This document shows positions 32,678-56,373 of a stretch of 64,000 bases of DNA, in pieces (positions within the stretch are counted from its first letter, which is position 1; every line of letters starts with the position of its first letter). The stretch is from Bacteroidota bacterium (lineage in GTDB: Bacteria > Bacteroidota > Ignavibacteria > Ignavibacteriales > Ignavibacteriaceae), in assembly GCA_021813585.1 (NCBI GenBank), contig JAKAJV010000022.1:1-64000 (forward strand). The letters are read 5' to 3'. The position numbers and the translations under genes are program-made. Below the pieces are notes generated by a model that was given only the letters and a program-made list of their open reading frames with translations, searched no databases and was not told the origin of the DNA.

Positions 32678-34159
32678 ATGAGAACAAATCAAATTACAGA
32701 TGAAGAGAGGCTTAAGGCTTTTAAATCGGTTAAAAAGCCAGAAGTAATTGATAAGCAAAAACTTGGTGTCCGGTACCATGTTGAAGACTTTGATGTAAAT
32801 GATAGGCCTAGAGGATTCCTTGAAGCCTTTGCTGCTATACTGAAGCATTCGAATTATAGAATGGTACTGGAACATTTTTCAAGGGTGAGTGCTAGGTGCT
32901 CTCACTGTGCAGTTGCCTGCCAGGTTTACCAGGCAACCGGCCGAAGGGAAGATATTCCATGCTACAGGTCAGAGCTTTTATTAAATGTTTACCGCCGTCA
33001 TTTTACGCTGGGCGGCTTGTTAAAAGGAAGGATCGCATCGGGCGATTATTTAACCGATGAAAAGATCCGGGAGATGGCGGAAAGCTTTTGGAACTGTACC
33101 GCGTGCAGAAGGTGCGCGCTCGAATGCCCCATGGGTATCGACCATGGATTAATTACTCACCTGGGCAGGTATATTTTAAGCGAGATAGGAATAGTGCCGC
33201 GGGCACTTGTAGTAAGCACAAGAGAGCAGCTGGAAGGCCCTACAAGAAATACTTCCGCCGTGCCTGTGCCGGCATTGAAAGATACGCTTGAATTTCTTGA
33301 AGACGACATGTTTGAAGAGAAATCGGTTAAAATAAGCTTTCCCCTGGATGTTCAGAATGCAGATTATGTTTTCTTCCCGGCCGTAAGCGACTTCCTTATG
33401 GAGGCCGAAACCTTAATGGGAATAGCAGCAGTTTTTAGAGCTACGGGCGACAAATGGACAATCGGTACCGGATATTATGACGGCATAAACTACGGGCTGT
33501 TTTACAGCGACCGTATTTTGGAACGGGTAATTAAAAATATAGATGTAGAAACAAAGAGGCTGAACGGAAAGAGCGTTCTTATAGGAGAATGCGGTCACGC
33601 CTCGCGGTCGGCTAAATATTTTTTACCTACCTTCTGCTGCGATAAAACCGCTTCACCGGTTTTAAATATAATTGAATATACATATAAAGCATGGAAAGAC
33701 GGCAAGATAAAGATTAAACCGGATGTTATAACCGAAAAAGTTGCTTATCACGATCCTTGTAATCTGGCAAGGCAGAGATGGATAATAAACCAGCCGCGCG
33801 AAATGCTGAAATCTTTCTGTAAGAATTATGTGGAAATGACTCCTTCCGGCGAAAATAATATTTGCTGCGGCGGCGGAGGCGGCACGGTTTCTATCGATGA
33901 GATTAGACCGTACAGAACAACTGTAGGCGGCAAGCTTAAAGCGGACCAGATAAGAAAATCCGGCTGCGAGGTACTGGTTGCACCGTGCGCTAACTGCAAA
34001 AAGCAATTAAGGGAACTGGTTGAAGATCAGGGAATAAACTGCCAGATAGTAGGTCTGCACGATTTGATTTATAAAGCGATAGAATTTGATGTTCCGCAGC
34101 CTGCAGATACTGAAGAATTATCTAACGGTAAGGGCGTAGCTCAAAAGGAGGGAAAATAA
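32678..34159 (+). CDS. HmcF-like iron-sulfur protein with heterodisulfide-type CCG domains
   Basis: 493 residues, cytoplasmic. Two ferredoxin motifs, RCSHCAVACQVY (about 68) and CTACRRCALECPMGID (about 139), precede two CCG domains ending in DPCNLARQRW, NNICCGGGGG and APCANCKKQL. This is the HdrD/DsrK/HmcF/TmcB family, which carries a special [4Fe-4S] site able to handle disulfides or thiols. The first motif has only three of the four usual cysteines; C in DIPCYRSE may complete it. The HmcE-like membrane partner follows 2 bases later. Assignment to Hmc rather than Tmc rests on neighbours, not on a tree. Confidence 0.8.
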   Translation: MRTNQITDEERLKAFKSVKKPEVIDKQKLGVRYHVEDFDVNDRPRGFLEAFAAILKHSNYRMVLEHFSRVSARCSHCAVACQVYQATGRREDIPCYRSELLLNVYRRHFTLGGLLKGRIASGDYLTDEKIREMAESFWNCTACRRCALECPMGIDHGLITHLGRYILSEIGIVPRALVVSTREQLEGPTRNTSAVPVPALKDTLEFLEDDMFEEKSVKISFPLDVQNADYVFFPAVSDFLMEAETLMGIAAVFRATGDKWTIGTGYYDGINYGLFYSDRILERVIKNIDVETKRLNGKSVLIGECGHASRSAKYFLPTFCCDKTASPVLNIIEYTYKAWKDGKIKIKPDVITEKVAYHDPCNLARQRWIINQPREMLKSFCKNYVEMTPSGENNICCGGGGGTVSIDEIRPYRTTVGGKLKADQIRKSGCEVLVAPCANCKKQLRELVEDQGINCQIVGLHDLIYKAIEFDVPQPADTEELSNGKGVAQKEGK

Positions 34160-34161
34160 TT

Positions 34162-34866
34162 ATGAGTTCTATTTTGGAATTTGCCCGCGGACCGTTATTC
34201 AGGCTTTGCTTTGCGTTAATGATACTCGGCCTGGCAAGAATTTTATTCCTGGATGTTTGGGGGGCGTACAAAGCTTTAAGAAAAGCCGGCGATAAAAAAA
34301 TGCCGTGGAAATTAATCTTAAGCCGCACATGGGAATGGATTTTTCCCTTAAAGAGGATGAAGAATAATTTCCATTTCTATTCACTCCTCTCCATTCTGTT
34401 CCATGTAGGTTTAATAATCGTCCCGGTATTTTTATTTGCTCATATTCAGCTCTGGAAAATTTCGGTAGGAATTTTCTGGCCGTCGCTTCCGTTTAATTGG
34501 GCGCTTATCCTAACTGTAAGTACTATTGTCTTTGCATTTCTAATGCTGTTGGGGCGCATTATAATTAAGCCTATAAAAGAATTAAGCAAAGGTCAGGATT
34601 ATCTCTGGCTGCTTTTACTGCTAGTGCCTTTTACCACCGGATTCATATGCGTTAATTTCAGCATAAGCCCGGGTACATATCAGCTTCTAATGCTTTTTCA
34701 TGTTCTATCTGCCGATGTAATATTTCTGCTTATTCCTTTTTCAAAGATAGCGCACTGTGTTCTGGTGCCGTTATCTCAAATTATAAGTGGATTAGCCTGG
34801 AAATTTCCGCCTAGAACAGATGATGATATTTGCACAACTTTAAATAAAAAAGGAGCTCCGGTTTGA
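34162..34866 (+). CDS. HmcE-like membrane cytochrome b subunit
   Basis: 234 residues with about five membrane helices and histidines in or near them (SILFHVGLI, MLFHVLSAD, KIAHCVLV), as in the NarI/HmcE/DsrM family that binds heme b and exchanges electrons with quinones. GGAGGGA precedes the ATG. It sits between the HmcF-like and HmcB-like genes and should anchor the cytoplasmic iron-sulfur subunit. Size matches HmcE. Confidence 0.8.
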   Translation: MSSILEFARGPLFRLCFALMILGLARILFLDVWGAYKALRKAGDKKMPWKLILSRTWEWIFPLKRMKNNFHFYSLLSILFHVGLIIVPVFLFAHIQLWKISVGIFWPSLPFNWALILTVSTIVFAFLMLLGRIIIKPIKELSKGQDYLWLLLLLVPFTTGFICVNFSISPGTYQLLMLFHVLSADVIFLLIPFSKIAHCVLVPLSQIISGLAWKFPPRTDDDICTTLNKKGAPV

Positions 34867-35645
34867 GTAAAGGAATTTTAACCGATGTAACCAAATGCAT
34901 CGGCTGTCTTAAATGTGTATCCGCTTGCAAGGAAGTCAACCATCTGGAGATGGACGTCCCGAGAATATGGCAAAAGAACGACGGCCTGTCTGCAGAGAAT
35001 TGGACTTCGGTAATTCAAAGGACCGGCAACAGGTATGTAAGAAAACAATGCAGGCATTGCATCGAGCCGGCCTGCGCTTCTGTTTGCCTGGTTGGCGCAT
35101 TGCACAAAACCAGTATCGGGGCTGTAGTATACGACAGCAATAAGTGTCTCGGCTGCCGGTACTGCATGATGGCCTGTCCGTTCGGCATTCCGCGTTATGA
35201 TTGGGACAAGACAGTCCCCCATGTAGAAAAGTGCATACTTTGTTATGATAGGATTAAAGACGGCGAACAGCCTGCTTGTACAAAGGCTTGTCCTACGGGA
35301 GCTACAATTTTTGGAGACCGCTCCACACTTTTAGCCGTTGCACATAAAAGAATTAAAGATAATCCCGGAAAGTATATAAATAAAGTATGGGGCGAGCACG
35401 AAATAGGCGGAACCTCCGTAATGTATCTTTCAGATATCGATCTTGGATTTCTTCAATACCAAACGAATATGGGAACAAAGCCGCTGCCGGCAGATACCGC
35501 ACCTGCAATGAAATCGGTTCCGTTTGCTTTTGTAGGAATGGGCGGAGTAATGCTGGGGCTTAACTGGATAATCCGCAGGCGGATGGAACTAAGCAAAGAA
35601 CAAAGCGAGGAAAAAAGCAAGAAGAAGGAATCTGCAGATGAATAG
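34863..35645 (+). CDS. HmcB-like four-cluster ferredoxin subunit
   Basis: 260 residues with four [4Fe-4S] motifs: CIGCLKCVSACKEVNH, CRHCIEPACASVCLVGAL, CLGCRYCMMACPFGIP and CILCYDR...ACTKACPTGA. A C-terminal membrane helix (about 217-233) and charged tail follow. It has no Tat signal, so this wire is probably cytoplasmic, unlike DsrO at 56921. It starts at TTG 34863 overlapping the previous stop, and overlaps the NrfD-like gene by 8 bases. It should relay electrons between the membrane subunit and the HmcF-like protein. Confidence 0.82.
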   Translation: MSKGILTDVTKCIGCLKCVSACKEVNHLEMDVPRIWQKNDGLSAENWTSVIQRTGNRYVRKQCRHCIEPACASVCLVGALHKTSIGAVVYDSNKCLGCRYCMMACPFGIPRYDWDKTVPHVEKCILCYDRIKDGEQPACTKACPTGATIFGDRSTLLAVAHKRIKDNPGKYINKVWGEHEIGGTSVMYLSDIDLGFLQYQTNMGTKPLPADTAPAMKSVPFAFVGMGGVMLGLNWIIRRRMELSKEQSEEKSKKKESADE

Positions 35646-37512
35646 AGTACATAACGCCAAACTAATTTTGTGGATTATTACCGGGCTAGCGGCAGCCGTT
35701 GCGCTCAACCGGTATATTTTCGGTCTGGGTGTTACAACAAACCTAAACGACTCAACACCCTGGGGCTTTTGGATTGGCTTTGATGTAATGGGCGGAGTAG
35801 CGCTTGCAGCTGGCGGGTTTGTTATTACTTCAATCTTTTATATTATGAAGAGGGAAGAATTCCATTCTCTTGTAAAGCCGGCGGTATTAACTGCATTCCT
35901 CGGTTACCTTGCCGTTATTTTCGGATTGCTGGTAGATTTAGGCTTGCCGTGGAATATCTGGCACATGATAATTTATTGGAACCCTCATTCACCTCTGTTT
36001 GAAGTAGGCTGGTGCGTAATGCTTTACACTGCGGTTCTGATTTTGGAGTTCAGCCCGGTGCCGCTGGAGAAGTTTAGCAGGTACGCTAAAATAAGAAGCT
36101 TCCTTATGAAGTTCCGGTTTGTTTTTGTACTGCTCGGCATTATGCTTTCTACTTTGCATCAATCTTCGCTAGGCACTTTATTTTTGATTATGCCGTTTAA
36201 GCTTTATCCTCTCTGGTATTCGAACATTCTGCCGGTTCAATTTTTTATTTCGGCAGTATCGATCGGCTTAATGATGGTTGCTTTTGAGAGCCTGGTTTCT
36301 CACTGGCTTTATAGGCGCAAGCCGGAAACCGATCTGGTTGCCAAGCTTTGCAGGGCTGTTGTTTGGGTGCTGGCCTTGTACTTCTTAGTAAAGATGATTG
36401 ATATTATTGCCGAAGGTAAATTTGGTCTTATTTTTAACGGAACCTGGCAGAGCAATCTTTTTATTTTTGAAGTTCTGATCTCCACTATAATTCCATCGGC
36501 AATATTCTCCGCACCTAAGTTATGCAAGAACGTAAAAGCTCAGTGGATTGGTTCATTCATGGTAATTGCCGGCATGGTGCTAAACCGGTTGGATGTGGGC
36601 GGGTTAGTTATGCTCGGCGCTACCGGCGATTCATACACCCCGGCGTGGACGGAAATAATTATCAGTCTCGGAATTGTTTCTATTGCTGCATTGGTCTTTT
36701 TATTTGTTATCGAGAACTTCCATATCTGGGATATTCAACCAGAGGACCCGGAGGCGAATCCTCATGCCTTGCCGACATTCGATTATTCATCCAGAGCTTG
36801 GCTGGGCAACCCGAATGTTTCTTCAATTACAAAGCACTCGCTTGCATTTATAATAAGCTTTGCCGCCGGTATGGCATTAATGCCGGGTAATCATTTGTAC
36901 AGCAAGGGCATTGATAGTATTAAAGTAAGCCGGGCAACAGGGGTGGACACTTTATACATCAACGGCAACCGGGATGATCAGTACGTTAAATTCCCGCATC
37001 AGGCACACATTGAAAAGCTCGGCAAAGACAGTTGTAATTATTGTCATCACTTAAATCTCCCTGATGAAAAACTAAGCATGTGCTGGGAATGCCATTCTAG
37101 TATGTATGCTAAAGTAAATTTCTTTAGGCACGATTGGCATGCATCAGCAAAAGGAGCGAACCTAAGGTGCAATGATTGCCATAAGCCGGGTGAAGCACGG
37201 AGTGTCAAATCCGCAAAGAGTTGCACCTCTTGCCATCCTACTTATAATTTTGCTGATACAACCAATACTCACCTAAAGCATTATATCCTTTCTTATACGG
37301 ATGCAATGCACAATTTATGTGTCTCGTGCCATCTAATTGAATTGAAAAAACAGCTTGTTAAAGATAAGCCTAATCTTGCTCAATGTTCGACTTGTCATAA
37401 AGCGGGCCTTCACCAAATTATAACGGAAGATATAAATTGGAAAATTAAATTACCGCATTTTAATAATGTAATTCTTCCGAATGCTAAGCAGGTAGAAATG
37501 GAAATGAAATGA
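35638..37512 (+). CDS. HmcC/NrfD-like membrane protein fused to a hexaheme cytochrome c
   Basis: 624 residues. About residues 1-370 form the polytopic NrfD/PsrC/HmcC fold (quinone-reactive, ten helices or so). An extra helix near 400-420 (SLAFIISFAAGMALM) leads to a C-terminal domain with six CxxCH heme sites: CNYCH (466), CWECH, CNDCH, CTSCH, CVSCH and CSTCH. The extra helix would place the hemes in the periplasm, where cytochrome c is matured. In known Hmc the cytochrome is a separate protein (HmcA); here it appears fused. It would connect periplasmic electron donors to the quinone pool or cytoplasm. Confidence 0.85.
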   Translation: MNRVHNAKLILWIITGLAAAVALNRYIFGLGVTTNLNDSTPWGFWIGFDVMGGVALAAGGFVITSIFYIMKREEFHSLVKPAVLTAFLGYLAVIFGLLVDLGLPWNIWHMIIYWNPHSPLFEVGWCVMLYTAVLILEFSPVPLEKFSRYAKIRSFLMKFRFVFVLLGIMLSTLHQSSLGTLFLIMPFKLYPLWYSNILPVQFFISAVSIGLMMVAFESLVSHWLYRRKPETDLVAKLCRAVVWVLALYFLVKMIDIIAEGKFGLIFNGTWQSNLFIFEVLISTIIPSAIFSAPKLCKNVKAQWIGSFMVIAGMVLNRLDVGGLVMLGATGDSYTPAWTEIIISLGIVSIAALVFLFVIENFHIWDIQPEDPEANPHALPTFDYSSRAWLGNPNVSSITKHSLAFIISFAAGMALMPGNHLYSKGIDSIKVSRATGVDTLYINGNRDDQYVKFPHQAHIEKLGKDSCNYCHHLNLPDEKLSMCWECHSSMYAKVNFFRHDWHASAKGANLRCNDCHKPGEARSVKSAKSCTSCHPTYNFADTTNTHLKHYILSYTDAMHNLCVSCHLIELKKQLVKDKPNLAQCSTCHKAGLHQIITEDINWKIKLPHFNNVILPNAKQVEMEMK

Positions 37513-37515
37513 ATC

Positions 37516-37902
37516 ATGTCTTCAAAGAAAATATTAATAATAGACGATGAGCCTGATGTTGTTGCTTACTTAAAGGTTTTGTTGGAATCGAACGGATATA
37601 AATCGTACTCTGCTCGTGATATTAAAACTGCCTTGCAGTTGGTAAAAGAAATAAATCCAGACCTTATATGCTTGGATATTGTAATGCCTAACGAAACCGG
37701 AATATCGTTTTACATGAAGCTTCAACAGGAAAAGAAATTTAGAAAGATACCGGTTATAATTATCAGCGGAATTATTGAATCTGAAAAATTCGACTTTCAT
37801 TCTTATGTTAAAGATTCATCGATACCTGCACCAAAGTGTTATATGGAAAAACCGCTGGACATAAAAAAATTTATTCAAAATATTAAACGGCTGACTAATT
37901 AA
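37516..37902 (+). CDS. Receiver-only response regulator (first)
   Basis: 128 residues containing only a CheY-like receiver: acidic pocket DDEPD, phospho-acceptor D in LICLDIVMPNE (about 54), conserved S/T region IISGI and K in MEKPLD. No DNA-binding domain. It begins 3 bases after the cytochrome fusion and 5 before the kinase. Hmc operons of Desulfovibrio carry a response regulator (Rrf1), which offers a precedent. It probably signals by protein contact. Confidence 0.9.
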   Translation: MSSKKILIIDDEPDVVAYLKVLLESNGYKSYSARDIKTALQLVKEINPDLICLDIVMPNETGISFYMKLQQEKKFRKIPVIIISGIIESEKFDFHSYVKDSSIPAPKCYMEKPLDIKKFIQNIKRLTN

Positions 37903-37906
37903 AAAA

Positions 37907-39007
37907 ATGGCACAGTTTAACAACCGTTGGCAGAAGGAATATGAGACTCTATTTGACAGAGTTCCCTGTTATGTTACTGTTATCGATAAGAATTTTAAAA
38001 TAGTAAGAGCCAATGACGCTTTTCGCGATAGTTTCGGCGATGCATTGAAACATCATTGCTATAAAATTTACAAACGAAACGACAGAAAATGCTATAATTG
38101 TCCGGCGGAAAAAACTTTTAAGGACGGAAAAGTTCACCGCTCAAACCAGCAGGGAATAGGCAAGCATAATGAAAAGATTTTTTATGCGGTTTCTACATCG
38201 GCACTTATTAAGGATGCAAAAAATATTAATTACGTAATCGAAATCTCCAGCGATATTACAGCGATGAAAAAACTGGAGGAAAAGGTAATTGAAGCTAAAA
38301 GACTAAGCGCTGTTGGGCAAACCGTTGCCGGTCTAGCGCACAGCATAAAAAATATTTTGATGGGCCTTGAGGGGGGGAAATACATTGTCAGTCTCGGCTT
38401 AAAGAAAAACGACCAAGCAATGATAAATCAAGGCTGGGAAATGCTTGAGAGAAATTTTGATAAAACCACTTCGCTTGTTAAGGACTTTCTCAGCTTTTCC
38501 AAGGGCAGAATTCCCGAACTGGAAATGGTAAGCCCCGGTGATCTTGTCTTGGAAATTGTAGATTTATACAAAGACGTTGCAGCACAATCTGGAATAGAAC
38601 TGGCTGCGGAGATTGACGAAAAGATAAAGCAGGTACCGTTAGACAAAGCAGGAATTCACACTTGTTTAACAAACCTCGTTTCAAATGCAATTGATGCATG
38701 CTTGATGTCGGTACAAAAAGGCAACATGGTAACAATTAAATTGTCCGAGAAGAAAAGTAAACTTATCTTTGAAGTACATGACAACGGCAGCGGCATCGAT
38801 TATGAGATTAAGAAAAAAATATTCACTACATTTTTTACAACCAAAGGCGGAGGCGGTACCGGGCTTGGTTTGCTTACTACAAGAAAGATTGTTGAAGAAC
38901 ATGGCGGTAAAATAACCGTTGAATCGAAAAGAGGTAAAGGAGCCGTTTTTAGAATAGAATTACTACCGGCAAGACTGATGGCATTGTATAAAGAATCCAA
39001 GAAATAA
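37907..39007 (+). CDS. PAS-domain sensor histidine kinase
   Basis: 366 residues, no membrane helix. PAS domain (about 1-125) with a cysteine group HHCYKIYKRNDRKCYNCPAE; short coiled coil; phospho-acceptor helix with GLAHSIKNILMGLEGG (His about 145); ATPase domain with LVSNAIDAC (N box), DNGSGID and GTGLGLLTT. The PAS cysteines could hold a cofactor or sense redox state. It is encoded inside the redox-complex operon with receiver-only partners on both sides, so it likely senses the state of the complex or its carriers in the cytoplasm. Confidence 0.9.
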   Translation: MAQFNNRWQKEYETLFDRVPCYVTVIDKNFKIVRANDAFRDSFGDALKHHCYKIYKRNDRKCYNCPAEKTFKDGKVHRSNQQGIGKHNEKIFYAVSTSALIKDAKNINYVIEISSDITAMKKLEEKVIEAKRLSAVGQTVAGLAHSIKNILMGLEGGKYIVSLGLKKNDQAMINQGWEMLERNFDKTTSLVKDFLSFSKGRIPELEMVSPGDLVLEIVDLYKDVAAQSGIELAAEIDEKIKQVPLDKAGIHTCLTNLVSNAIDACLMSVQKGNMVTIKLSEKKSKLIFEVHDNGSGIDYEIKKKIFTTFFTTKGGGGTGLGLLTTRKIVEEHGGKITVESKRGKGAVFRIELLPARLMALYKESKK

Positions 39008-39027
39008 TAATTTTAAAGGAGCTAAAC

Positions 39028-39552
39028 ATGCCTGAGACATCAAAAAAGAAAATTCTCGTCGTTGATGATGAGCAGGATATTAGAAATTTTTTATCTGCTG
39101 CGCTTAATGAAGCGGGATTTGACGTTGCATTAGCATCTGACGGAGACGACGCTTTGGAAAAAATTAAAAAGCAAATCCCCGATTTAATATCTCTAGATCT
39201 TGTAATGCCGCATAAATCCGGCGCAAGATTGTACCATGAATTACTAAAACATAAGGCTTGGTCCAAAATTCCGGTTATTATTGTTACCGGGCATGCTAGA
39301 GATGAATTCGGCAAATCGGATTTGAAAGATTTAACTATGTCCGGGCCGGGGCTTTACCTGGAGAAGCCTGTTAAGCCGGATAACTATATTGCCGCTGTTA
39401 AAAATATTTTAAAAATGGATACGACGGAAGAAGAAAAGAAGACGGCTGAAATGATCCGGCTTCAGAATGAATTAAAAAATATTATAGACGGCGCCGATAA
39501 TGAAACTTTAAAGAAACTTAAAGAAGAATTAACCGGTAAAAAAAATAGGTAG
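39028..39552 (+). CDS. Receiver-only response regulator with helical tail (second)
   Basis: 174 residues. CheY-like receiver (about 1-130; DDEQD, D in LISLDLVMPHK, K in LEKPVKPD) followed by a charged helical tail of about 40 residues (TEEEKKTAEMIRLQNELKN...). No DNA-binding motif. It sits between the kinase and the DsrM-like gene. The tail may mediate dimerisation or docking. Confidence 0.88.
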   Translation: MPETSKKKILVVDDEQDIRNFLSAALNEAGFDVALASDGDDALEKIKKQIPDLISLDLVMPHKSGARLYHELLKHKAWSKIPVIIVTGHARDEFGKSDLKDLTMSGPGLYLEKPVKPDNYIAAVKNILKMDTTEEEKKTAEMIRLQNELKNIIDGADNETLKKLKEELTGKKNR

Positions 39553-39582
39553 CGGCTATAATCTTTATAATAAGGAGAAATA

Positions 39583-40521
39583 ATGATGATAATACTTTAT
39601 CTATTTGCTTATTTTTCTATACTGACTTTTTGTGGCCTGGTTATAAAAAGAATACTTAAATACAAAAATATGCCCGTACATCTAAGATGGGAATTATACC
39701 CTGTGGCTCACGAGCCGTTTAGAAATAAGTATGGCGGTTCCTATTACGAAGAGGTTGAATGGTGGAATAAAAAAAATAAAAAAGATCACCTGGCCGAGTT
39801 TTGGGTGATGTTTGAAGAGATATTCTTATTAAAGGGAGTATATGTTCATAATAAAAAATTGTGGCTTTTCAGCTTTCCGTTCCATCTTGGGTTGTATTTA
39901 ATATCTGCTACCGCAATTATTATTACATGTTCAGCTGTTTTAGATTTAAGCTCTATCATCAGTATATTGAATGCACAAAATATCTTTGGGAAAATTATTT
40001 TATATCTTACCAAAGTAACCGCATATTCGGGGCTTGCTTTAACATTCATCGGCGGCATAGGGTTGCTGATAAAAAGACTTTCGGAAAAAAAATACAAGTT
40101 CTATAATACACCGCTGGACATTATCAACTTGCTCTTTATTTTAATACTAACAATTAGCATTTCCGCTACTCTTATTTTTTCCAATTCTTCCTTTACCTTA
40201 AGCGAAGAATTTGTTAAAAATCTTTTTTCGTTTAACTTCGCTGCAATTTCCAACAAGTTATTTATCATTCATATAGTTCTTATTTCTATATTCCTTTTAT
40301 ATTTCCCTTTAACTAAGATGATGCACCTATTTGCAAAATATTTTACATACCATAATGTAAGGTGGGAAGACGAGCCCAATTATAAAGGCGGGAAACTTGA
40401 AAGAAGAATTAAAGAAGCCTTAAACTTTGACATTGGCTGGTCTGCGCCTCATGTAAGAACCGGAAAGACATGGGCAGAGGCAGCCACCACATTACCACCG
40501 GAGATGAAAAATGTCGAATAA
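39583..40521 (+). CDS. DsrM/TmcC-like membrane cytochrome b subunit
   Basis: 312 residues with about five or six membrane helices and heme-ligand-like histidines (FPFHLGLYL, IIHIVLIS, LTKMMHLFAKYF). The same fold as DsrM (53072-54082), which is longer at the N terminus of its core. It overlaps the DsrK-like gene by 11 bases, giving a tight MK pair. In sulfate reducers the equivalent pair in the Tmc complex is TmcC-TmcB, next to a kinase and regulators as here. Expected to exchange electrons with menaquinone. Confidence 0.78.
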   Translation: MMIILYLFAYFSILTFCGLVIKRILKYKNMPVHLRWELYPVAHEPFRNKYGGSYYEEVEWWNKKNKKDHLAEFWVMFEEIFLLKGVYVHNKKLWLFSFPFHLGLYLISATAIIITCSAVLDLSSIISILNAQNIFGKIILYLTKVTAYSGLALTFIGGIGLLIKRLSEKKYKFYNTPLDIINLLFILILTISISATLIFSNSSFTLSEEFVKNLFSFNFAAISNKLFIIHIVLISIFLLYFPLTKMMHLFAKYFTYHNVRWEDEPNYKGGKLERRIKEALNFDIGWSAPHVRTGKTWAEAATTLPPEMKNVE

Positions 40522-42151
40522 TAAAAATATGCGGGAAACAAGATATAGCCCGGGAATAAATTCAATTAAAGAATTTGCCGAAGCTGATGAGAGGCTAGCT
40601 GCGCTGGACCCGGAAAAATATTTAAAGCTTCCTTACCCTTATGATGATTGGGTTGATCCTCCTATTAAAGAGCTAACCGACGAACAGAAGAACAGGCTGG
40701 AACATTCGCTCGACGGCTTATCGGCTGTTTCAATCCCCAAGCCGGAAACTTCGAAAGATAAAGAAGAACTCGTTGCAAAATTTCTTGCCGGCTTAAAAAA
40801 ATTATTCAGTAAAGAAAATAATTGGACGTTCGTTCAGCCGTTTACACTTTCAATGGAAAATTGTATGAAGTGCCAAACTTGTTCGGATGAGTGCCCTATC
40901 TACATCTCTAGCGGAAAGGAAGAAATTTACCGGCCGATGTTCCGCGGGGAAATATTAAGAAGAATAATTGATAAATACCTTAAGCCCGGCGGCAAGTTCT
41001 TTCAGAAATTAACCGGCTCTGAATTTGAACTAAACTGGGAAACTGTGGCTAGACTTGCAGAGCTTTCTTACCGGTGTACACTTTGCAGGCGCTGTGCACA
41101 GGCCTGTCCTATTGGAATAGATAATGCCCTAATTACGCGCGAGATTAGAGTGCTTTTTAGTGAAGAGCTGGGAATTGCTCCTGCCGAACTGCATTCCGCC
41201 GGCACAGTTAAGCAACTTAAAACCGGTTCCTCTACCGGTACTAATCCTACTGCAATGCGCGATATTGTTGAGTTCATAGAGGAAGATTTAAAGGATTTGT
41301 ATGATGTAGATATTAAGCTGCCGGTTGATAAGGAAGGAGCGGAAATTCTACTCCTTCATAATTTCGGCGAGTATCTTTCATGGCCGGAAAATATTATGGC
41401 TTTTGCTATTATTTTTGAGAAGGCAGGGATCAACTGGACTTTGTCTTCAGAGATGGGCGCATACGACTCGGTGAATTACGGCCTGTTCTACGATGACGTG
41501 CAATTTGCCCGGGTAGCACTCGATCATGTTGCAAAGGCTAAAAAGCTAGGAGTAAAAAAGCTTGTGGTAAGCGAATGCGGTCATGCTCATAAATCGCTAA
41601 TACCTATTGCCGATCGAATATTGGTAGACGATAATATTATTTTCAGGGAAAGTGTTTTCCCCCTTCTTGAAGAAATAGTATTTAACGGCAAAATAAAATT
41701 TAATCCGAAAAAAAACGACTTCCCCGTTACTTTGCACGACCCTTGCAACATTGTAAGAGCGATGGGAATTGTAGAGCCGCAGAGAAGAATCCTTCGCAAA
41801 CTGTGTCCGCAGTTTATCGAAATGGAACCTCACGGCGTAAACAACTATTGCTGCGGCGGCGGAAGCGGCTTTGCTATCTTTCAAGGAAAAAACTTTCCCG
41901 AATGGAGAAATAAAATTTCATTCAGAATGAAATTCAAACAAACATTGGAAGCTTTTAAGGATAATATTGATCCTTCAATTAAAAAATATGTTTGCGCGCC
42001 TTGCTCTAATTGTAAAGGAGCTTTTAGGGACGGCTTAACATATTATAACGCTTTTGAAAAATGTGGAATTATTTACGGCGGCCTAGTTGAACTTATTGTG
42101 AATGCAATGGAAGATATGGAAAAGCCATTCATCCAATGGGAGCTTAAATAG
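40511..42151 (+). CDS. DsrK/TmcB-like iron-sulfur protein with CCG domains
   Basis: 546 residues, cytoplasmic. After a 100-residue N-terminal extension come two ferredoxin motifs, CMKCQTCSDECPIY and CTLCRRCAQACPIGID, then CCG domains with SECGHAHKSL, DPCNIVRAMG, YCCGGGSGF and APCSNCKGAF. It is a paralogue of DsrK (54269) and of the HmcF-like protein (32678). The catalytic [4Fe-4S] site suggests a thiol/disulfide substrate such as DsrC, but the true partner is unknown. Confidence 0.82.
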   Translation: MSNNKNMRETRYSPGINSIKEFAEADERLAALDPEKYLKLPYPYDDWVDPPIKELTDEQKNRLEHSLDGLSAVSIPKPETSKDKEELVAKFLAGLKKLFSKENNWTFVQPFTLSMENCMKCQTCSDECPIYISSGKEEIYRPMFRGEILRRIIDKYLKPGGKFFQKLTGSEFELNWETVARLAELSYRCTLCRRCAQACPIGIDNALITREIRVLFSEELGIAPAELHSAGTVKQLKTGSSTGTNPTAMRDIVEFIEEDLKDLYDVDIKLPVDKEGAEILLLHNFGEYLSWPENIMAFAIIFEKAGINWTLSSEMGAYDSVNYGLFYDDVQFARVALDHVAKAKKLGVKKLVVSECGHAHKSLIPIADRILVDDNIIFRESVFPLLEEIVFNGKIKFNPKKNDFPVTLHDPCNIVRAMGIVEPQRRILRKLCPQFIEMEPHGVNNYCCGGGSGFAIFQGKNFPEWRNKISFRMKFKQTLEAFKDNIDPSIKKYVCAPCSNCKGAFRDGLTYYNAFEKCGIIYGGLVELIVNAMEDMEKPFIQWELK

Positions 42152-42170
42152 AAAAACCGGGAGTGAAGAA

Positions 42171-42554
42171 ATGAAAAATCAAAAAAAGATTTTAATTATT
42201 GATGACGAAAAAGACGTGGTAGCTTATCTTTCCGCTTTCTTCGCAGATAATGGTTTCCTTGTTATCTCTGCTTCTAACGGAATGGAAGGTATTCAAAAAG
42301 CCATTACAGAGAAACCTGATATTATTACTCTGGATATTTCTATGCCGAAGGAATCAGGTGTTAAAGCGCTGCGCCAATTACAAAATGATAACCTGACAAA
42401 AGATATTCCAGTTATAATTATTACAGGGCTAGCCTCGGACTTTAAGCGATTTATAGGATCGCGAAAGCAAGTTAAGATGCCGGAGGGTTATTTCGAAAAG
42501 CCTGTAGATAGAAACTTGCTTCTAGTAAAGGTAAAAGAACTGCTGCGTATCTAA
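42171..42554 (+). CDS. Receiver-only response regulator (third)
   Basis: 127 residues with a bare CheY-like receiver: DDEKD, D in IITLDISMPKE, T in IIITGL, K in FEKPVD. Closest in the window to the first receiver (37516). ATG at 42171 follows GGGAGTGAAG; an upstream in-frame ATG at 42102 lies inside the DsrK-like gene. Last gene of the operon. Confidence 0.9.
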   Translation: MKNQKKILIIDDEKDVVAYLSAFFADNGFLVISASNGMEGIQKAITEKPDIITLDISMPKESGVKALRQLQNDNLTKDIPVIIITGLASDFKRFIGSRKQVKMPEGYFEKPVDRNLLLVKVKELLRI

Positions 42555-42891: not shown

Positions 42892-44028
42892 ATGATATGT
42901 CAGATCAGTCAGCCTAGTATAAATCCAAGTATAACTTCCGGTATAACATGCCCGTTTTGCAATAGCTCCAGGATAATAAAGCACGGCAAAACTACGGCGG
43001 ATATACAGCGTTTTAGATGTATGTTCTGCCAGAGGACTTGGGTCCAGAATAAAATCCCGAAGCAGTCGCCGGATATAGGTGCACTAACAGAGGCTTATCT
43101 TAGCGGCTATTCCTACAGAGACCTTCGCTCAATCTACCACAGTTCACCCACAAGGATAAATCAGAAAATAAGAGAATATTTACTCGGCTGCTCATCATGG
43201 GAAGATTACCTGGATGCATGCACGCCTAAGCACGAAGCCCGTTTGATACATCTTGTGGGTAAAAAATTTAAATGCAACCTTGGCAGCAATAAAGAGCACC
43301 TAATGTTCTTAGCTTTGGCAATAGATGCGCTTTCAACGGTAGTGCTCGGTTATGAGCTGGCTGAGGCTGAATCTACGGATGTTTGGATTACCCTGCTAGA
43401 TAGAATGAACTGCAGGGGGTTTGTATGCCCTACGTTTATGTCTTACGGCTTCAAAACAGTTGATGAAGCCTTGAAAGTTGTCTTTCCATATGCAACTACT
43501 TTTAATAATTTTACCAGAGCCTGTTACGATAAGCAGCTGAAAAATGAAATATACTTTTCGCCGGATATAAAAAAATTAATTATGGAAGCGATTAACGCGT
43601 ATAAAATAAATGAATCCAACCGGCTTGCGAATTACCTGGTGATATTTAAAGACAAGCGCATGAAACAGATTGTACTGGATTCCAAAGATTATTTCATCAA
43701 CCGGCTGCAGGACAGAATAAGTAAAAAGCCGACAATCCGCTTCGAGGGTCTTTTAAACGCTTTCCAAACAAGGTTCGAAAAGTTTCATATGATTAAATAC
43801 GATCCTCTGCCCATTATAAACGGATGGATCGCCTGGTGGATGCTGGTGCCGCTGCAAATCGGCTTCAGCAGGCTTTCGCTGTATCTGCAATGCCCGTGTC
43901 AAACTCATTTCAAAAACTTTAACTGCGGCACTCTGCCGGTTCCTTTAAACCTTCCTATTAACAGCGCAGAGATGAGAACTTTTATAGTCGAGCTTGCGGT
44001 CAGATCGATTCATATTCCCATAAAATAA
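42892..44028 (+). CDS. Transposase-derived protein with IS1-type zinc ribbon
   Basis: 378 residues. An N-terminal zinc ribbon (CPFCNSSRIIKHGKT...RCMFCQRTW) and helix-turn-helix (LTEAYLSGYSYRDLRSIY) resemble InsA-type IS proteins. The central part keeps an RNase H-like layout: D in FLALAIDALS fits the first catalytic Asp, but the second position reads FMSYGFKTV where SDG would be expected. It has no obvious terminal repeats. This suggests a domesticated, inactive transposase kept for DNA binding, or a decaying insertion sequence. It lies between the Hmc/Tmc-like operon and yeiH-dsrAB. Confidence 0.6.
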   Translation: MICQISQPSINPSITSGITCPFCNSSRIIKHGKTTADIQRFRCMFCQRTWVQNKIPKQSPDIGALTEAYLSGYSYRDLRSIYHSSPTRINQKIREYLLGCSSWEDYLDACTPKHEARLIHLVGKKFKCNLGSNKEHLMFLALAIDALSTVVLGYELAEAESTDVWITLLDRMNCRGFVCPTFMSYGFKTVDEALKVVFPYATTFNNFTRACYDKQLKNEIYFSPDIKKLIMEAINAYKINESNRLANYLVIFKDKRMKQIVLDSKDYFINRLQDRISKKPTIRFEGLLNAFQTRFEKFHMIKYDPLPIINGWIAWWMLVPLQIGFSRLSLYLQCPCQTHFKNFNCGTLPVPLNLPINSAEMRTFIVELAVRSIHIPIK

Positions 44029-45891: not shown

Positions 45892-47112
45892 ATGGCTGAA
45901 AAAGAACGCAAGACACCCAAGCTGGACGAGCTGGAAAAAGGTGCCTGGCCAAGTTTCGTAAAGGAAATAAAAAGCGCAGCCGGAAAAAATCCAATGGCAA
46001 ATGATCTTTTAGGGCAGCTTGAGCGCTCTTATGAGGAGAAGATAGGCCACTGGAAGCATGGCGGTATAGTAGGAGTTCTTGGATACGGTGGAGGAGTTAT
46101 CGGTAGGTATTCGGATCTACCCGAAGAATTTCCAAATGTTTCTCACTTCCACACCATGCGTATAAACCAACCCGCCGGGTGGTTTTATACTTCCGATGTT
46201 TTAAGAAAGCTCTGCGACATCTGGGAAAAGCACGGTTCCGGATTAACTAATATGCACGGCTCTACCGGGGATATGATCTTCCTGGGAACCCGTACGGATG
46301 AACTGGAACCGATATTCAGCGAGTTGACAAAACTAGGCTTCGACCTGGGCGGCTCAGGCTCGGATGTAAGAACTCCAAGCTGCTGCTGCGGCAAGGCACG
46401 CTGCGAATGGGCATGCTACGATACGATGGCTCTTACATACTTCTTAACAATGCACTACCAGGATGAGCTCCACAGGCCGGCTTTCCCGTATAAATGGAAA
46501 TTCAAAATGTCCGGCTGCCCTAATGATTGCGTAGCTTCCGTTGCAAGGGCAGATATGTCGATCATCGGAACATGGAGAGATGATATCCAGATAGACAAGT
46601 CGGCAGTTACGGAATATGCCGGAAAAGGAATGAATATCCAGAGAGATGTTGTAGGCAACTGCCCGGCTAAATGTATGGAATGGGACGGCACGGAACTAAA
46701 GATAGACAACAAAGCTTGCGTTAAATGTATGCACTGCATAAACGCGATGCCTAAGGCTCTTTCTCCGGGCAACGACCGGGGCGCTTGTATTCTTATCGGT
46801 TCCAAGGCACCCATTGTAGAAGGAGCGCTGCTTTCATCGGTTCTGGTTCCGTTTATTAAACTTGAACCGCCTTATACCGAACTGATAGACCTGATTGATA
46901 GGATACACGAGGTCTGGTCGGAAAACGGAAAGAACCGAGAAAGAGTAGGCGAATTTATTCAGCGCGTAGGCATGGGTAATTTCCTGGAAGCAATAGAAGT
47001 TGAGCCTGTACCGGAAATGGTTGCGCATCCGAGAGAAAATCCTTATGTGTTTTATGAGGAATTCTTTGAAGACGAATCCGAAGAACAGGAAGAATCGGAA
47101 GAAGAAAAGTAA
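45892..47112 (+). CDS. dsrA: Dissimilatory sulfite reductase alpha subunit
   Basis: 406 residues. The siroheme-[4Fe-4S] ligands appear as C165-x5-C171 ([14 protein letters not shown]) and C209-x3-C213 (SGCPNDC). A ferredoxin domain follows ([10 protein letters not shown]...CVKCMHC). With DsrB it forms the alpha2beta2 enzyme that reduces sulfite to a DsrC-bound trisulfide in the cytoplasm. The tail [14 protein letters not shown] is strikingly acidic. dsrD lies directly downstream of dsrB, which favours the reductive type. AGGAGT precedes the ATG. First gene of the dsrABD unit. Confidence 0.97.
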
Positions 47113-47167
47113 TTTTTATCTGCAATAAGACTATTACTAAGAAATTATTTTTAAAAGGAATAATAAA

Positions 47168-48250
47168 ATGGCTGAAGAAAAAAAGAAAAGATTAACGGAT
47201 ATAGGTCCGCCTCATTACGAAAAATTTTTACCACCAATTATAAAAGAGAACTACGGTAAGTGGAAATACCATGAAATAATAAAGCCCGGCGTAATGGTAC
47301 ACGTATCCCACAGCGGTGCTAAATTATATACTGTACGCGCCGCTTCCCCCAGGCTTTTGAGCATTGACAAGATTAGAATTTATGCCGACCTGGCGGATAA
47401 ATATTGCGGCGGGTATTTAAGATTTACAAGCCGCAACAATGTTGAATTCCTGCTGTCGGACGCATCTAAGATCGATCCTCTTATAGAAGATCTGCGCGCG
47501 CTGGGTCATCCGGTCGGCGGTATGGGCAATTCAATCTCAAGTATTGTTCATACTCAAGGCTGGGTACACTGCCACTCTGCAGCAACCGATGCATCGGGTC
47601 TTGTAAAATCTGTAATGGATGAATTGATAGAGTATTTTACGCAGATGAAGCTGCCTGCCAAGCTGCGCATTGCTCTTGCATGCTGCTTAAACATGTGCGG
47701 TGCGGTTCATTGTTCGGATATAGCTATACTCGGCATTCACAGGCGTCCGCCCAAAGTTAACCGTGATAAACTGAAAGCTATGTGCGAAATTCCATCGCTG
47801 GTTTCTGCTTGTCCTACTGCAGCAATTAAGCCTGCTACAATAAATGAAAAGCCTTCGGTAGAAGTAATAGAGGAGCGGTGTATGTTCTGCGCAAACTGCT
47901 ACACTGTTTGCCCTGCAATGCCGTTGAACGATCCGTTAAACGACGGAGTTTCAATTTGGGTAGGTGGAAAAGTATCCAACGCAAGAAGCGAACCTATGTT
48001 CTCCAAGCTGGCAATTCCGTTCTTGCCGAACGACCCGCCGAGATGGCCGGAAGTAGTTAACGCCGTAAAAAATCTGGTTGAAGTTTGGGCGCAGAATGCC
48101 AGGCCGTATGAAAGGATGGGAGAGTGGATAAATAGAATCGGGTGGCCGAGATTTTTCCAGCTTACTGGCATCCCGTTCCAGAAGGAACACATTGATGATT
48201 TTAAGCATGCCGGCTTAACATTTAAACGTTCGGTTCATTTGACTTATTAA
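47168..48250 (+). CDS. dsrB: Dissimilatory sulfite reductase beta subunit
   Basis: 360 residues. Contains [19 protein letters not shown], the siroheme-binding [13 protein letters not shown] (C-x3-C) and a ferredoxin motif [18 protein letters not shown]. The beta subunit holds the catalytically active siroheme in characterised DsrAB. Length is normal, and the gene lies 55 bases after dsrA. Confidence 0.97.
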
Positions 48251-48262
48251 AAGGAGAATATT

Positions 48263-48511
48263 ATGGCTGAGTTAGTAAAAGTTGAAGAGGTGGCCGACTC
48301 TATGTTTACCATGATAAAAGACACCATGGGTCAGAAGAAATGGAAAGCTACCGATCTGACCAAGGCGGTTTTGGAATTATACGGAGACAGATGCGATAAG
48401 ACACTGGCTAAGTCCGCTATTAGAGAACTAATTGAAAGCGGGAAATGCGTCTATACTTACTTCGGCGGCAGCTTTATAGAGATACCTCATAAAGAAGGCG
48501 CCGAGAATTAG
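48263..48511 (+). CDS. dsrD: DsrD, activator of sulfite reductase
   Basis: 82 residues with a winged-helix layout (MGQKKWKATDLTKAVLELYG...CVYTYFGGSFIEIPHKEG). DsrD is found with reductive DsrAB and has been shown to stimulate sulfite reduction by allosteric activation. Its presence is the main argument in the window for sulfite/sulfate reduction rather than sulfur oxidation. It follows dsrB by 12 bases behind AAGGAG. Confidence 0.93.
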   Translation: MAELVKVEEVADSMFTMIKDTMGQKKWKATDLTKAVLELYGDRCDKTLAKSAIRELIESGKCVYTYFGGSFIEIPHKEGAEN

Positions 48512-48513
48512 GA

Positions 48514-48643
48514 TTAACCGGGATAAAGGTAGAATCTATTAGAAAGTTTTGTTGGCTAAGGTAAATCAAAATCTTTTTTTGAACTATAAGATATTGGTAG
48601 CCCATTTATTCTTAAAACTTTTTTTGTGCCTTTATTCCGGTTA
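48514..48643 (+). ncRNA. Structured intergenic element between dsrD and dsrN
   Basis: Nested complementary segments would fold the whole gap into one long hairpin: TAACCGGGATAAAGG (48515-48529) with CCTTTATTCCGGTTA (48629-48643), 14 of 15 plus a G-U pair; AAAGTTTT (48543-48550) with AAAACTTT (48614-48621); then GGCTA with TAGCC and ATCTT with AAGAT inside. It starts 3 bases after the dsrD stop and ends 20 bases before dsrN. It may protect the dsrABD mRNA, attenuate dsrN, or be an inserted palindrome. Confidence 0.5.
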
Positions 48644-48662
48644 CCCGGATAAAAACTAGAAG

Positions 48663-50108
48663 GTGAAGTTGAATAATTATCCCAGAATTGTAATAGGAGG
48701 TTTATCGGGAGACTCGGGCAAGACAATGATTACCTGCGGATTGCTCGAGTGTCTAAGGGCGAGCGGAGTTAATGTTGCGGCTTTTAAAAAAGGACCGGAC
48801 TATATAGACGCCGCCTGGCTGAGTTTATCCTCCGGTAAGCTTACCAGGAATCTTGATACCTATTTAATGGGTACGCAAAAGGTTAAAGGCTCTTTTTTAA
48901 GAAATGCTTCTGCCGAGGGGATAAATATTATTGAAGGTAACCGGGGTCTATTTGACGGAGTAGACAGCCAGGGTACACACAGCACCGCTGAACTGGCAAA
49001 GCTTTTGCAGGCGCCGGTTATAATAGTTCTTAATGTTTCAAAGATGACGCGCACAGCCGCAGCGCTTGTTTTCGGCTGTAAATTTCTAGATTCCGAGCTG
49101 AATATACTTGGAGTAATTCTAAACAGGGTTGCCGGCAAGAGGCACATAGAAATAGCAAAGGAATCGATTGAAGGAGAAACCGGGATACCTGTATTAGGAA
49201 CAATTCCGAAACTGCCGGCAAAATTTATTTTACCGGAGCGGCACCTGGGATTAATAACTCCCGCTGAATTTGAAAAGAGGTCTTCTTTCTTGAAAGATAT
49301 GAGGTGCATAATAAAGGACAATGTCGACATCCCGAAGATAAAGGAGATAGCCTTTAATGCGCCTTCAATAAGTTACGATCCCGTTGAAGCTGAAGCCGAA
49401 CCAGGCACCGGCACCACGAATAAATTTACCGGCGAAGCTCCCGGTAGAGTTAAAATAGGATTTTTTAGAGACAAGTCATTTTCTTTTTATTACCCAGAAA
49501 ATTTGGAGGCCCTTGAAATGGCCGGGGCAGAGCTTATACCTGTCTCTTCTACGGAACATTTTGAGCCCGATGATATTGATGCCTTTTATATCGGTGGCGG
49601 ATTCCCCGAATTGAACCTGCCCGGCCTTTCGTCTAATAAAGAAATGACGACAACAATTAAAAGGCTGGCGGAAGGCGGCCTGCCGATTTATGCCGAGTGC
49701 GGCGGGTTAATCTATCTTGCCGAAGAGATAATCTATAAAGGCAAGAAATACTCACTCTCAGGCGTACTGCCGGTCTCTATCAATTTGCATAATAAGCCGC
49801 AGGGACACGGCTACTGTGAAATGACAGTGGACAGAGAAAATCCGTTCTATAATACCGGGACAAAAATTAAAGGACACGAGTTTCATTACTCGAAGATTTT
49901 TAAACACGATCCGGATATAAAAAGTTGTTTATCGGTCTCCCGCGGCTACGGATGTTATGACGGAAGGGACGGCCTATCGTACAAAAATGTTTTTGCAAGT
50001 TATGTCCACATCCATGCATTGGCTACACCGGAGTGGGCGGGGGGAATGATTAGGTGTGCACAGAATTATAAGGAAGCCAAGACAACAAGCTTGGCAGGTA
50101 CAAATTAA
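48663..50108 (+). CDS. dsrN: DsrN, siroheme amidase (cobyrinate diamide synthase family)
   Basis: 481 residues, same architecture as CbiA/CobB. The N-terminal ATPase domain has GGLSGDSGKTMITCGLLE and KKGPDYIDAAWLS; the C-terminal glutamine amidotransferase domain has the catalytic cysteine in PIYAECGGLIYLAEE and the histidine in GHEFHYSKIF. In dsr clusters this enzyme amidates siroheme to the form used in DsrAB. The start is GTG 48663 or TTG 48669; the latter is 5 bases after AGAAGG and may be the true one. Confidence 0.9.
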   Translation: MKLNNYPRIVIGGLSGDSGKTMITCGLLECLRASGVNVAAFKKGPDYIDAAWLSLSSGKLTRNLDTYLMGTQKVKGSFLRNASAEGINIIEGNRGLFDGVDSQGTHSTAELAKLLQAPVIIVLNVSKMTRTAAALVFGCKFLDSELNILGVILNRVAGKRHIEIAKESIEGETGIPVLGTIPKLPAKFILPERHLGLITPAEFEKRSSFLKDMRCIIKDNVDIPKIKEIAFNAPSISYDPVEAEAEPGTGTTNKFTGEAPGRVKIGFFRDKSFSFYYPENLEALEMAGAELIPVSSTEHFEPDDIDAFYIGGGFPELNLPGLSSNKEMTTTIKRLAEGGLPIYAECGGLIYLAEEIIYKGKKYSLSGVLPVSINLHNKPQGHGYCEMTVDRENPFYNTGTKIKGHEFHYSKIFKHDPDIKSCLSVSRGYGCYDGRDGLSYKNVFASYVHIHALATPEWAGGMIRCAQNYKEAKTTSLAGTN

Positions 50109-50120
50109 GAGGAGAATAAA

Positions 50121-51827: not shown

Positions 51828-51925
51828 AATGTTCTCAAGAAAAAAAATCAATTTTTAGCAAGGTTAATGTTCGAGAAAAATAATTTATTAAACACATAAT
51901 TACCAACTAATAATAGGACAATGTT

Positions 51926-52243
51926 ATGCCAATCTTTGAATATAAAGAACTGAAGATTGAAGTTGACGAAGACGGCTTCATTCAGAAACCGGAAGAATGG
52001 AACGAAGACATAGCTAAGGCATTAGCTACCACAGAAGACGTTGCAGAAATGTCTGAAGCGCATTGGAAGATAGTTTATTACTTGCGCGATTATTATAAGA
52101 AATTCGGGATAGCTCCGATGATCCGTAAGCTCTGCAAGGAAACAGGCTTTTCACTTAAAGATATATATGAATTGTACCCGTCGGGCCCGGCTAAAGGTGC
52201 TTGCAAAGTAGCCGGCTTAACAAAGCCCACTGGGTGCGTATAA
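51926..52243 (+). CDS. dsrC: DsrC sulfur carrier
   Basis: 105 residues, the normal length. The flexible C-terminal arm GACKVAGLTKPTGCV carries both redox cysteines (the penultimate one and the one 11 residues before it), so this is a true DsrC and not a one-cysteine TusE. DsrAB loads sulfite sulfur on it as a trisulfide, which DsrMKJOP is thought to reduce. It sits between dsrL and the membrane-complex genes. Confidence 0.97.
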   Translation: MPIFEYKELKIEVDEDGFIQKPEEWNEDIAKALATTEDVAEMSEAHWKIVYYLRDYYKKFGIAPMIRKLCKETGFSLKDIYELYPSGPAKGACKVAGLTKPTGCV

Positions 52244-52415
52244 AAGCTTAAGCATATAAAATTTTATCCTTAAAAAAACAGCCGGCTGCAGATGGTTCGA
52301 TCGGTTAATCATCCGTTGGATCCGGAAGCTTGCTCGATACAAAATTAAAACCGGCAAGTTGAATGAAGGATTTCAAATCCGGTAATTCGTAATCGGATTA
52401 ATTTGAAAAGCATAT

Positions 52416-52895
52416 ATGATAAAAGAATTATTAATAAAGAATAAATCAAAGATCGTTGATAAATGGATTCAATCCATTTATAACAGCTATCCGCCGGAGG
52501 CCTCAAAGTTCTTAGGTAATAGGAAGGACAGGTTCGGCAACCCGGTAGGATATATTATTGCCGATAGCGCAGAAAAAATTTTTGATGAGTTTGTTAATAA
52601 TAACAACAATGAAAGGATAAAATTGTTATTGAAAGAAATTATTAAGATAAGAGCCGTGCAAGACTTTACTCCGTCTCAAGCTGCCGGCTTTATCCTTTCA
52701 TTGAAGGAAGTAATTTACAAAGAGCTTGAGCTAGAGGTTAAGTCGGGTAATTATTTTAACGAATTTATTCTTATTGATGTTGGAATAGATAATATAGCCT
52801 TAATGTCGTTCGACTTGTTTATGGAAGCCAGAGAAAAAATATTTCAACTCCGCACCAATGAGATTAGATCGAGATCAATGAAAATTATTGACTGA
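52416..52895 (+). CDS. RsbRD_N-like domain protein upstream of dsrM
   Basis: 159 residues, all helical. It resembles the N-terminal sensor domain of RsbR-type stressosome proteins (KNKSKIVDKWIQSIYNSYPPE, then DFTPSQAAGFILSLKEVIYKE), which has a globin-like fold without an obvious heme site. Such proteins are found beside dsrMKJOP in some sulfate reducers, so a sensory or assembly role at this complex is likely. Its stop codon lies inside the first 14-bp regulatory element (52888-52901). Confidence 0.7.
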   Translation: MIKELLIKNKSKIVDKWIQSIYNSYPPEASKFLGNRKDRFGNPVGYIIADSAEKIFDEFVNNNNNERIKLLLKEIIKIRAVQDFTPSQAAGFILSLKEVIYKELELEVKSGNYFNEFILIDVGIDNIALMSFDLFMEAREKIFQLRTNEIRSRSMKIID

Positions 52896-53007: not shown

Positions 53008-53071
53008 AATGTTTTAATTAAGCAAGAGCAGCAGAATTTTTTTCAAACTTACTCTACAGTAGGAAAGATTG

Positions 53072-54262: not shown

Positions 54263-54268
54263 GATAAA

Positions 54269-55960: not shown

Positions 55961-55985
55961 AATGTAAAATTATTTGGAGTTAAAA

Positions 55986-56363: not shown

Positions 56364-56373
56364 TCTATGAAAA

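Follow-up and report, generated by a model that had tools for sequence, protein, structure and literature searches.

The ten-gene operon

A run of ten genes encoding subunits of two electron-transfer modules, a histidine kinase and three receiver proteins lies at 32678–42554 on the forward strand of the window, by which we mean the whole stretch of 64,000 nucleotides analysed here (contig JAKAJV010000022.1 of assembly GCA_021813585.1, positions 1 to 64,000, from a member of the Ignavibacteriaceae). The gene order is Hmc-like F, E, B and C, receiver, PAS kinase, receiver, DsrM-like, DsrK-like, receiver. Every open reading frame (ORF) was present in an ORF check, and the successive intergenic gaps are 2, −4, −8, 3, 4, 20, 30, −11 and 19 bases, with the last gene starting at the ATG at 42171. 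An earlier note on this DNA had described ten closely spaced or overlapping genes, which the gaps of −11 to +30 bases bear out.

The ten proteins were annotated with Pfam and NCBIfam. The first gene (32678–34159) encodes a CCG iron-sulfur protein of the HmcF/DsrK/TmcB type with 493 amino acids (Pfam CCG and Fer4_8), which scored 258 bits with the NCBIfam DsrK model, 200 with TmcB (cut-off 735) and 196 with HmcF (cut-off 750), each under its cut-off. It is followed by an HmcE/TmcC-type membrane subunit (34162–34866, 234 amino acids; TmcC 102 of 240 bits, HmcE 97 of 275), an HmcB-type 4Fe-4S protein with a TTG start (34863–35645, 260 amino acids; HmcB 258 of 420), and an HmcC/NrfD-type membrane subunit with a C-terminal six-heme cytochrome domain (35638–37512, 624 amino acids). 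In this last protein HmcC matched residues 8–369 with 300 of 550 bits, Cytochrom_CIII (class III type) matched residues 446–533, and six CxxCH motifs are present; the "HmcC" of the operon is an HmcC–multiheme fusion. A sequence search of the PDB with it returned nothing at E 0.001. As all of these scores are under the NCBIfam cut-offs, the Hmc subunits of the window are homologous to those of Hmc, not equivalog.

The stand-alone receiver REC1 (37516–37902, 128 amino acids) comes next, then a soluble PAS histidine kinase (37907–39007, 366 amino acids; PAS_9 and HATPase_c) and a second stand-alone receiver, REC2 (39028–39552, 174 amino acids), which has a C-terminal helical tail. In alignments the PAS domain of the kinase holds a C-x(10)-CxxC motif, and the H-box reads GLAHSIKNILMGLEGG. 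The DsrM-like membrane subunit of NarI type, here DsrM′ (39583–40521, 312 amino acids; Nitrate_red_gam), scored 33 of 300 bits with DsrM, and the DsrK-like iron-sulfur protein, here DsrK′ (40511–42151, 546 amino acids; CCG and Fer4_8), scored 337 of 400 with DsrK. The longest ORF of the third stand-alone receiver, REC3 (42171–42554), begins at 42102 within the DsrK′ gene, and the internal ATG at 42171 is its likely start.

All three receivers best matched the NCBIfam DVU0259 family (NF045717), with 108, 90 and 103 bits for REC1, REC2 and REC3, the cut-off of 160 not being reached, and the acidic pair, the phospho-accepting Asp, the Thr/Ser and the Lys are intact in each. Pfam found Response_reg only in these three receivers, and no DNA-binding domain in them or in three relatives scanned. 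None of the ten genes encodes a DNA-binding output, as the earlier note had said of the phosphorelay. In an alignment of 42 REC2 orthologues an α4-β5 patch and a C-terminal tail are conserved. This tail of about 46 residues was modelled by AlphaFold2 as helices 134–155 and 158–173 with a predicted local distance difference test (pLDDT) score of 83, and the nearest solved folds found by Foldseek were ordinary receivers, e.g. RR468, PhoB and CheY. In one related locus (L158:10482-11399) REC2 and REC3 are joined in one tandem protein with two Response_reg stretches.

The Hmc system of Desulfovibrio shares with the operon the HmcF, E, B and C homologues and an adjacent CheY-like receiver, called Rrf1; in the window REC1 lies 3 bases after HmcC. 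Hmc also has HmcA, a 16-heme periplasmic cytochrome, and HmcD, neither of which is among the ten ORFs, and unlike Hmc the operon has its six-heme domain fused to HmcC and a kinase and three receivers inside. With the Tmc complex (TmcABCD) it shares TmcB- and TmcC-type subunits and the DVU0259-type receivers. In D. vulgaris DVU0259 is part of the tmc locus, and DVU0258-0260 are regulators associated with Tmc. In contrast to these, the window receivers sit with Hmc-like and DsrMK-like modules, and no gene for the cytochrome c3 TmcA is among the ten. DsrK′ is close to DsrK and the same CCG chemistry is expected, whereas DsrM′K′ differs from DsrMKJOP in being a pair without JOP in the operon.

Neighbours of related kinases

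In order to see which genes accompany the kinase in other organisms, genome contigs were searched with a profile of a five-kinase alignment. There were 171 matching stretches and 99 relatives, of which the best 80 were kept; the counts below cover 78 of these loci, since two (L146 and L157) had no readable kinase ORF. The survey selects on the kinase alone, with no neighbouring gene required, and the gene-order strings ignore unmatched ORFs shorter than 150 amino acids. The loci carry the labels Zixibacteria, Ignavibacteria, Calditrichaeota, Acidobacteria, Gemmatimonadota, Planctomycetota, Latescibacterota, Armatimonadetes, Myxococcota, Electryonea, Omnitrophota and Deltaproteobacteria, in all about ten phyla, and among the best 80 of the 99 those closest to the window's locus are labelled Ignavibacteriaceae, Zixiibacteriota and Melioribacteraceae. 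A C-x(6-17)-CxxC motif was found in 78/78 kinases, although 61 of these do not fit the cysteine pattern with which they had been searched for; the PAS domain may serve to sense redox state or a metal.

Within 7 kb of the kinase there was a receiver in 76/78 loci, an HmcC-type gene in 65/78 (with at least five CxxCH motifs in 61/78), a CCG gene in 61/78, and the complete set of F, E, B and C in 47/78. The HmcC–cytochrome fusion was the next matched gene upstream of the kinase in 54/78, with zero to two receivers between them, and HmcF belonged to the same gene run in 45 of those 54. A receiver stood directly before the kinase in 37/78, and downstream of it there was at least one in 70/78 and at least two in 42/78. 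As the order F-E-B-C-(receiver)-kinase-receiver recurs in loci that were found by the kinase alone, we consider it more than chance, and the set of kinase and receivers is tied to Hmc-type modules across about ten phyla. The arrangement is not always co-directional: in six Deltaproteobacteria loci (L123, L136, L137, L141, L142 and L145) the kinase is divergent from Hmc/Tmc-type genes, and four of the six have a cytochrome with 15–17 CxxCH motifs.

The earlier note had the relay joining the two electron-transfer modules. The relay does accompany the Hmc side, while no more than 7/78 loci had an orthologue of DsrM′ or DsrK′ at up to 7 kb from the kinase (a looser count of 12 loci includes five weaker CCG matches), against 65/78 with an HmcC-type gene. 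We therefore rejected, as a general rule, the alternative that the relay belongs to DsrM′K′ rather than to Hmc. There are five loci (L115, L143, L158, one in G437 and one in G473) in which the kinase is paired with DsrM′K′ and no Hmc gene is in view.

The full ten-gene arrangement was followed by a DsrK′ search over the 294 genomes of the class, from which 20 neighbourhoods in 18 genomes were read. Among these 18 only G340 matches, with nine of the ten genes and no receiver between HmcC and the kinase, and locus L083 has all ten genes in permuted order, with DsrM′ cut at the contig end. We therefore rejected the idea that the ten genes are conserved as a unit in exactly this order; the merged form of which the earlier note had spoken is nearly unique to this genome and hence local. 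G340 has an extra receiver-like ORF after REC3 (L063:3346-3789) in which the phospho-accepting Asp is missing, possibly a decaying REC1.

In G480 and six genomes of the genus g29 (G374, G368, G364, G356, G333 and G371) HmcFEBC stands before a gene for an InsA-type zinc-ribbon protein and dsrA, with the six-gene block from REC1 to REC3 absent; in G474 the contig stops shortly after hmcC. Between hmcC and the InsA-type gene G356 retains a scar (L079, about 11716-12322) consisting of the C-terminal end of DsrK′, with 77% identity and one internal TAG, and a truncated REC3, which indicates that the block was lost there by deletion. In family f11 (L064-L068 and L073) DsrM′K′ comes immediately after dsrC and no kinase of this family is close to it, and we take the pair to belong to sulfate reduction independently of Hmc.

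Carriers of the kinase locus were also examined for genes of sulfate reduction. In a set made up of the window's genome and 25 picked from the 80 kinase loci, dsrB was found in 25/26 and dsrC in 23/26. The one carrier without dsrB (G536) has aprA, which was present in 9/10 carriers tested and not found in G518. Among the 294 genomes of the class 17 have dsrB and six have the kinase, and all six are dsrB-positive.

The stand-alone receivers of these loci, 159 with the three of the window and 156 from the survey, measure 114–209 amino acids, and the phospho-accepting Asp is kept in 158/159 and the Lys in 159/159. Eight ORFs of at least 215 or under 110 amino acids were left out of these length and residue counts (L089, 450; L102, 997; L111, 230; L116, 312; L158, 305; and the short ones in L108, L119 and L145), of which those in L111 and L116 look over-long, and one receiver that was counted (L138, at 15487) is probably unrelated. 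Judging by their length, the remaining relatives probably also lack a DNA-binding domain.

Receivers fused to a CCG subunit

In 23 distinct genomes a paralogous CCG iron-sulfur subunit carries a same-family receiver as a C-terminal fusion. Pfam gave Fer4_8, CCG and Response_reg in one ORF for L132, L133 and L117, and CCG with Response_reg for L083, which is cut, and BLAST added four genomes of the class. Of 29 genomes searched, 18 have the fusion at full length and one has it split over two contig ends, while it was not found in the other ten, which include the window's genome, G340 and G480. Each genome is counted once, since G531 and G448 are apparently one genome and L132 lies in G529. For two of the carriers (L125/G517 and L129/G518) the record is a chromosome, and a binning error is accordingly less likely.

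A TmcC-like gene is next upstream of the fusion in 23/23, and a kinase of the same family is next downstream in 22/23, the exception being L117 with a receiver instead. This set of TmcC-like gene, CCG–receiver and kinase is a separate paralogous operon, not present in the window's genome. It lies within or near dsr genes in six cases (L221, L227, L228, L230, L181/L225 and L182), being between dsrC and dsrMKJOP in L221 and directly before dsrAB in L227. The TmcC-like gene is preceded by one for a macro-domain protein in the three operons tested with Pfam (L221:10097-10633, L132:16268-16810 and L133:11641-12288), and other fusion operons have ORFs of similar size at that position.

The CCG part of the L132 fusion is closest to HmcF (336 bits) and TmcB (328 bits), under their cut-offs, and the best response-regulator family for the receiver part of both fusions scanned was DVU0259. 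In a midpoint-rooted tree 8/8 fused receivers tested fell into a clade with 27/28 REC1 and 56/57 REC3 (support 0.88), which contained 0/6 control receivers, the L138 receiver mentioned above being one of the six. The fused receiver itself folds well in an AlphaFold2 model, and the linker of the fusions is variable.

For some sulfate reducers, receivers beside hmc and tmc have been described before; new here is the fusion of a CCG subunit with a receiver beside a TmcC-like gene and a same-family kinase. Searches of the open literature, with subscription papers mostly outside their reach, returned no paper on this fusion or on the cross-phylum conservation, and open-literature searches on DVU0259/DVU0260 and on fused receivers returned none either. 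A D. alaskensis study treats the function of Tmc and Hmc (PMC4215793), and a D. vulgaris regulator survey counts 29 of 72 regulators with a DNA-binding domain and maps those 29 (PMC3333781).

A possible switch on electron transfer and its genomic setting

The regulation of bacterial respiration is commonly seen as a matter of how much of each complex is made. We read the ten genes as an electron-transfer operon of sulfate respiration with a built-in two-component switch that would act on redox proteins rather than on DNA, and from the genomic evidence we give this a probability of somewhat under 60%. Direct control of the CCG subunit is suggested by three things taken together, namely receivers without DNA-binding domains, their steady company with CCG complexes, and the covalent fusion of a same-family receiver to such a subunit with its own kinase. 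The receivers of the window resemble CheY, DivK and Spo0F, which act by protein contact, in being receiver-only with an intact phosphorylation site. They differ from these in their proposed target, an iron-sulfur subunit of a respiratory complex to which such receivers are naturally fused in some genomes.

In such a scheme the Hmc-like module and DsrM′K′ would pass electrons between the periplasm or quinone pool and an acceptor in the cytoplasm by way of their CCG subunits, the acceptor most likely being DsrC or a ferredoxin. The PAS kinase, with its conserved cysteine motif, would sense a cytoplasmic redox or thiol signal and phosphorylate the stand-alone receivers, and these in their phosphorylated form would bind one or more cytoplasmic CCG subunits and alter their activity, choice of partner, or attachment to the membrane subunit. 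What we infer here is the direction of electron flow, the signal, the transfer of phosphate, the surface that is bound, and whether the effect is positive or negative. If true, a receiver acting on an iron-sulfur subunit would allow electron flow to be controlled rapidly and after translation in a process of global importance, and it could explain the receivers and kinases beside hmc and tmc in some Desulfobacterota; with the natural fusions, one purified protein would be enough to test the idea. A broader form, in which PAS kinases with the cysteine motif would sense the cytoplasmic redox state and, by receivers that are docked on CCG subunits or fused to them, quickly switch Hmc-, Tmc- and DsrMK-type complexes, so that a phosphorylation-gated electron valve is general to sulfate respiration, is tentative, its chances being just short of even. 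It would mean a two-component system with a respiratory complex as its output in sulfate reducers of about ten phyla.

Several results weigh against an action on the redox proteins. The evidence for direct control is purely genomic, and no count was corrected for genome relatedness, so the counts are not independent events. Eight relatives hold HmcFEBC with no close kinase anywhere in the genome (best 27–34% identity), indicating that the relay is dispensable to the Hmc core, and five genomes with DsrM′K′ likewise have no close kinase (best 31–33%). There was no redox gene near 7/78 kinases. Three of these contigs (L086, L108 and L162) start at most 0.6 kb from the kinase and a fourth (L120) is 4.8 kb long, while in L121, L130 and L140 the kinase is truly away from recognisable redox genes. 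The AlphaFold2 model of the fused protein, from 8 rows only, gave no confident docking, with the linker at pLDDT <50 and a predicted template modelling score (pTM) of 0.51. DNA-binding regulators also occur in the loci. A sigma-54-type activator, recognised by motif, lies upstream on the same strand in 21/78, and on the opposite strand nearby L089 has a sigma-54-type response regulator (450 amino acids) and L179 an OmpR-type receiver–DNA-binding gene. In D. multivorans, according to PMC5109826, hmc and tmc genes adjoin response regulators and kinases, and these regulators are termed DNA-binding. Control by contact, as the earlier note had proposed it, is favoured by the fusions beside a same-family kinase, but it has to be set against an Hmc core without relay and against these activators.

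The receivers could serve as relay or sink proteins in a pathway whose end point is some DNA-binding regulator encoded elsewhere, so that control is transcriptional and contact plays no part. The same-strand activators and the wording for D. multivorans would fit this, as would D. hydrothermalis, where according to PMC4162548 a CheY-like gene adjoins hmc and the hmc transcript level moves together with those of this gene and a UspA gene. We nevertheless consider it unlikely, because Pfam found among the ten genes no Hpt protein and no receiver with a DNA-binding domain, and the fusion of a receiver with a CCG subunit is not easily reconciled with a relay that leads to DNA. The three activators scanned (L085, L083 and L129) consist of PAS, sigma54 and HTH (Fis) domains with no receiver, so transcription seems to have a regulator of its own there. 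On the side of transcriptional control, deletion of rrf1/rrf2 in D. vulgaris reportedly changed hmc expression.

By analogy with RssB or DivK, the receivers might instead act on the complex indirectly, as adaptors through which the CCG subunit is assembled, localised to a pole, attached to the membrane or proteolysed, for which the conserved two-helix tail of REC2 and the variable, poorly predicted linker of the fusions could be taken as signs. No recurring adaptor gene was seen, which counts weakly against it as most unmatched ORFs of the loci lack identification, and we regard this explanation as improbable. It is more improbable still that the genes are co-transcribed without functional coupling, the kinase and receivers serving another process inside a sulfate-respiration cluster. 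The eight relatives that dispense with the relay and the three kinases away from redox genes would be expected in that case, but an order kept across about ten phyla, partners that stay together in both divergent and co-directional arrangements, and a covalent fusion would not.

Many relatives have a PAS-sigma54-Fis activator upstream of HmcF (e.g. the 2240-3589 / 3955-4725 region of L085), and 5/25 candidate activators have a cysteine motif like that of the kinase. An upstream protein in the same region of L085 is weakly similar to the FeMo-Co family, under the cut-off. In the window, neither an activator nor a FeMo-Co-like gene was seen immediately before the operon.

Past the ten-gene block, after 0.3 kb, come the InsA-type zinc-ribbon gene, a YeiH-like gene, and on the forward strand at 45892–58895 the genes dsrA, dsrB, dsrD, dsrN, dsrL-like, dsrC, an RsbRD_N gene and dsrMKJOP, identified from ORFs and, for 52416–58895, with Pfam. 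Those from dsrA to dsrC (45892–52243) were named by reading the sequence, not by family search, and Pfam gave no match for the DsrJ candidate. The window has a full dsrMKJOP (53069–58895) besides DsrM′K′, and its dsr order is repeated in other genomes read. As aprA lies on the same contig just outside the window (G000:C63:68465-70300), we take the region of the operon to be a sulfate-reduction island.

The InsA-type protein (378 amino acids, 42892–44028) resembles a relative of transposases, yet it has one match per genome (two in G374). Its gene occurs in 25/294 genomes of the class, including all 17 with dsrB; it precedes dsrA in the f1 and f8 genomes read, with the YeiH-like gene between them in the window, and in f11 genomes it is away from dsrB. 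It is a candidate domesticated regulator of sulfate reduction. The RsbRD_N-domain gene between dsrC and dsrM (52416–52895), which stands beside dsrMKJOP in other loci read too, is possibly another regulator.

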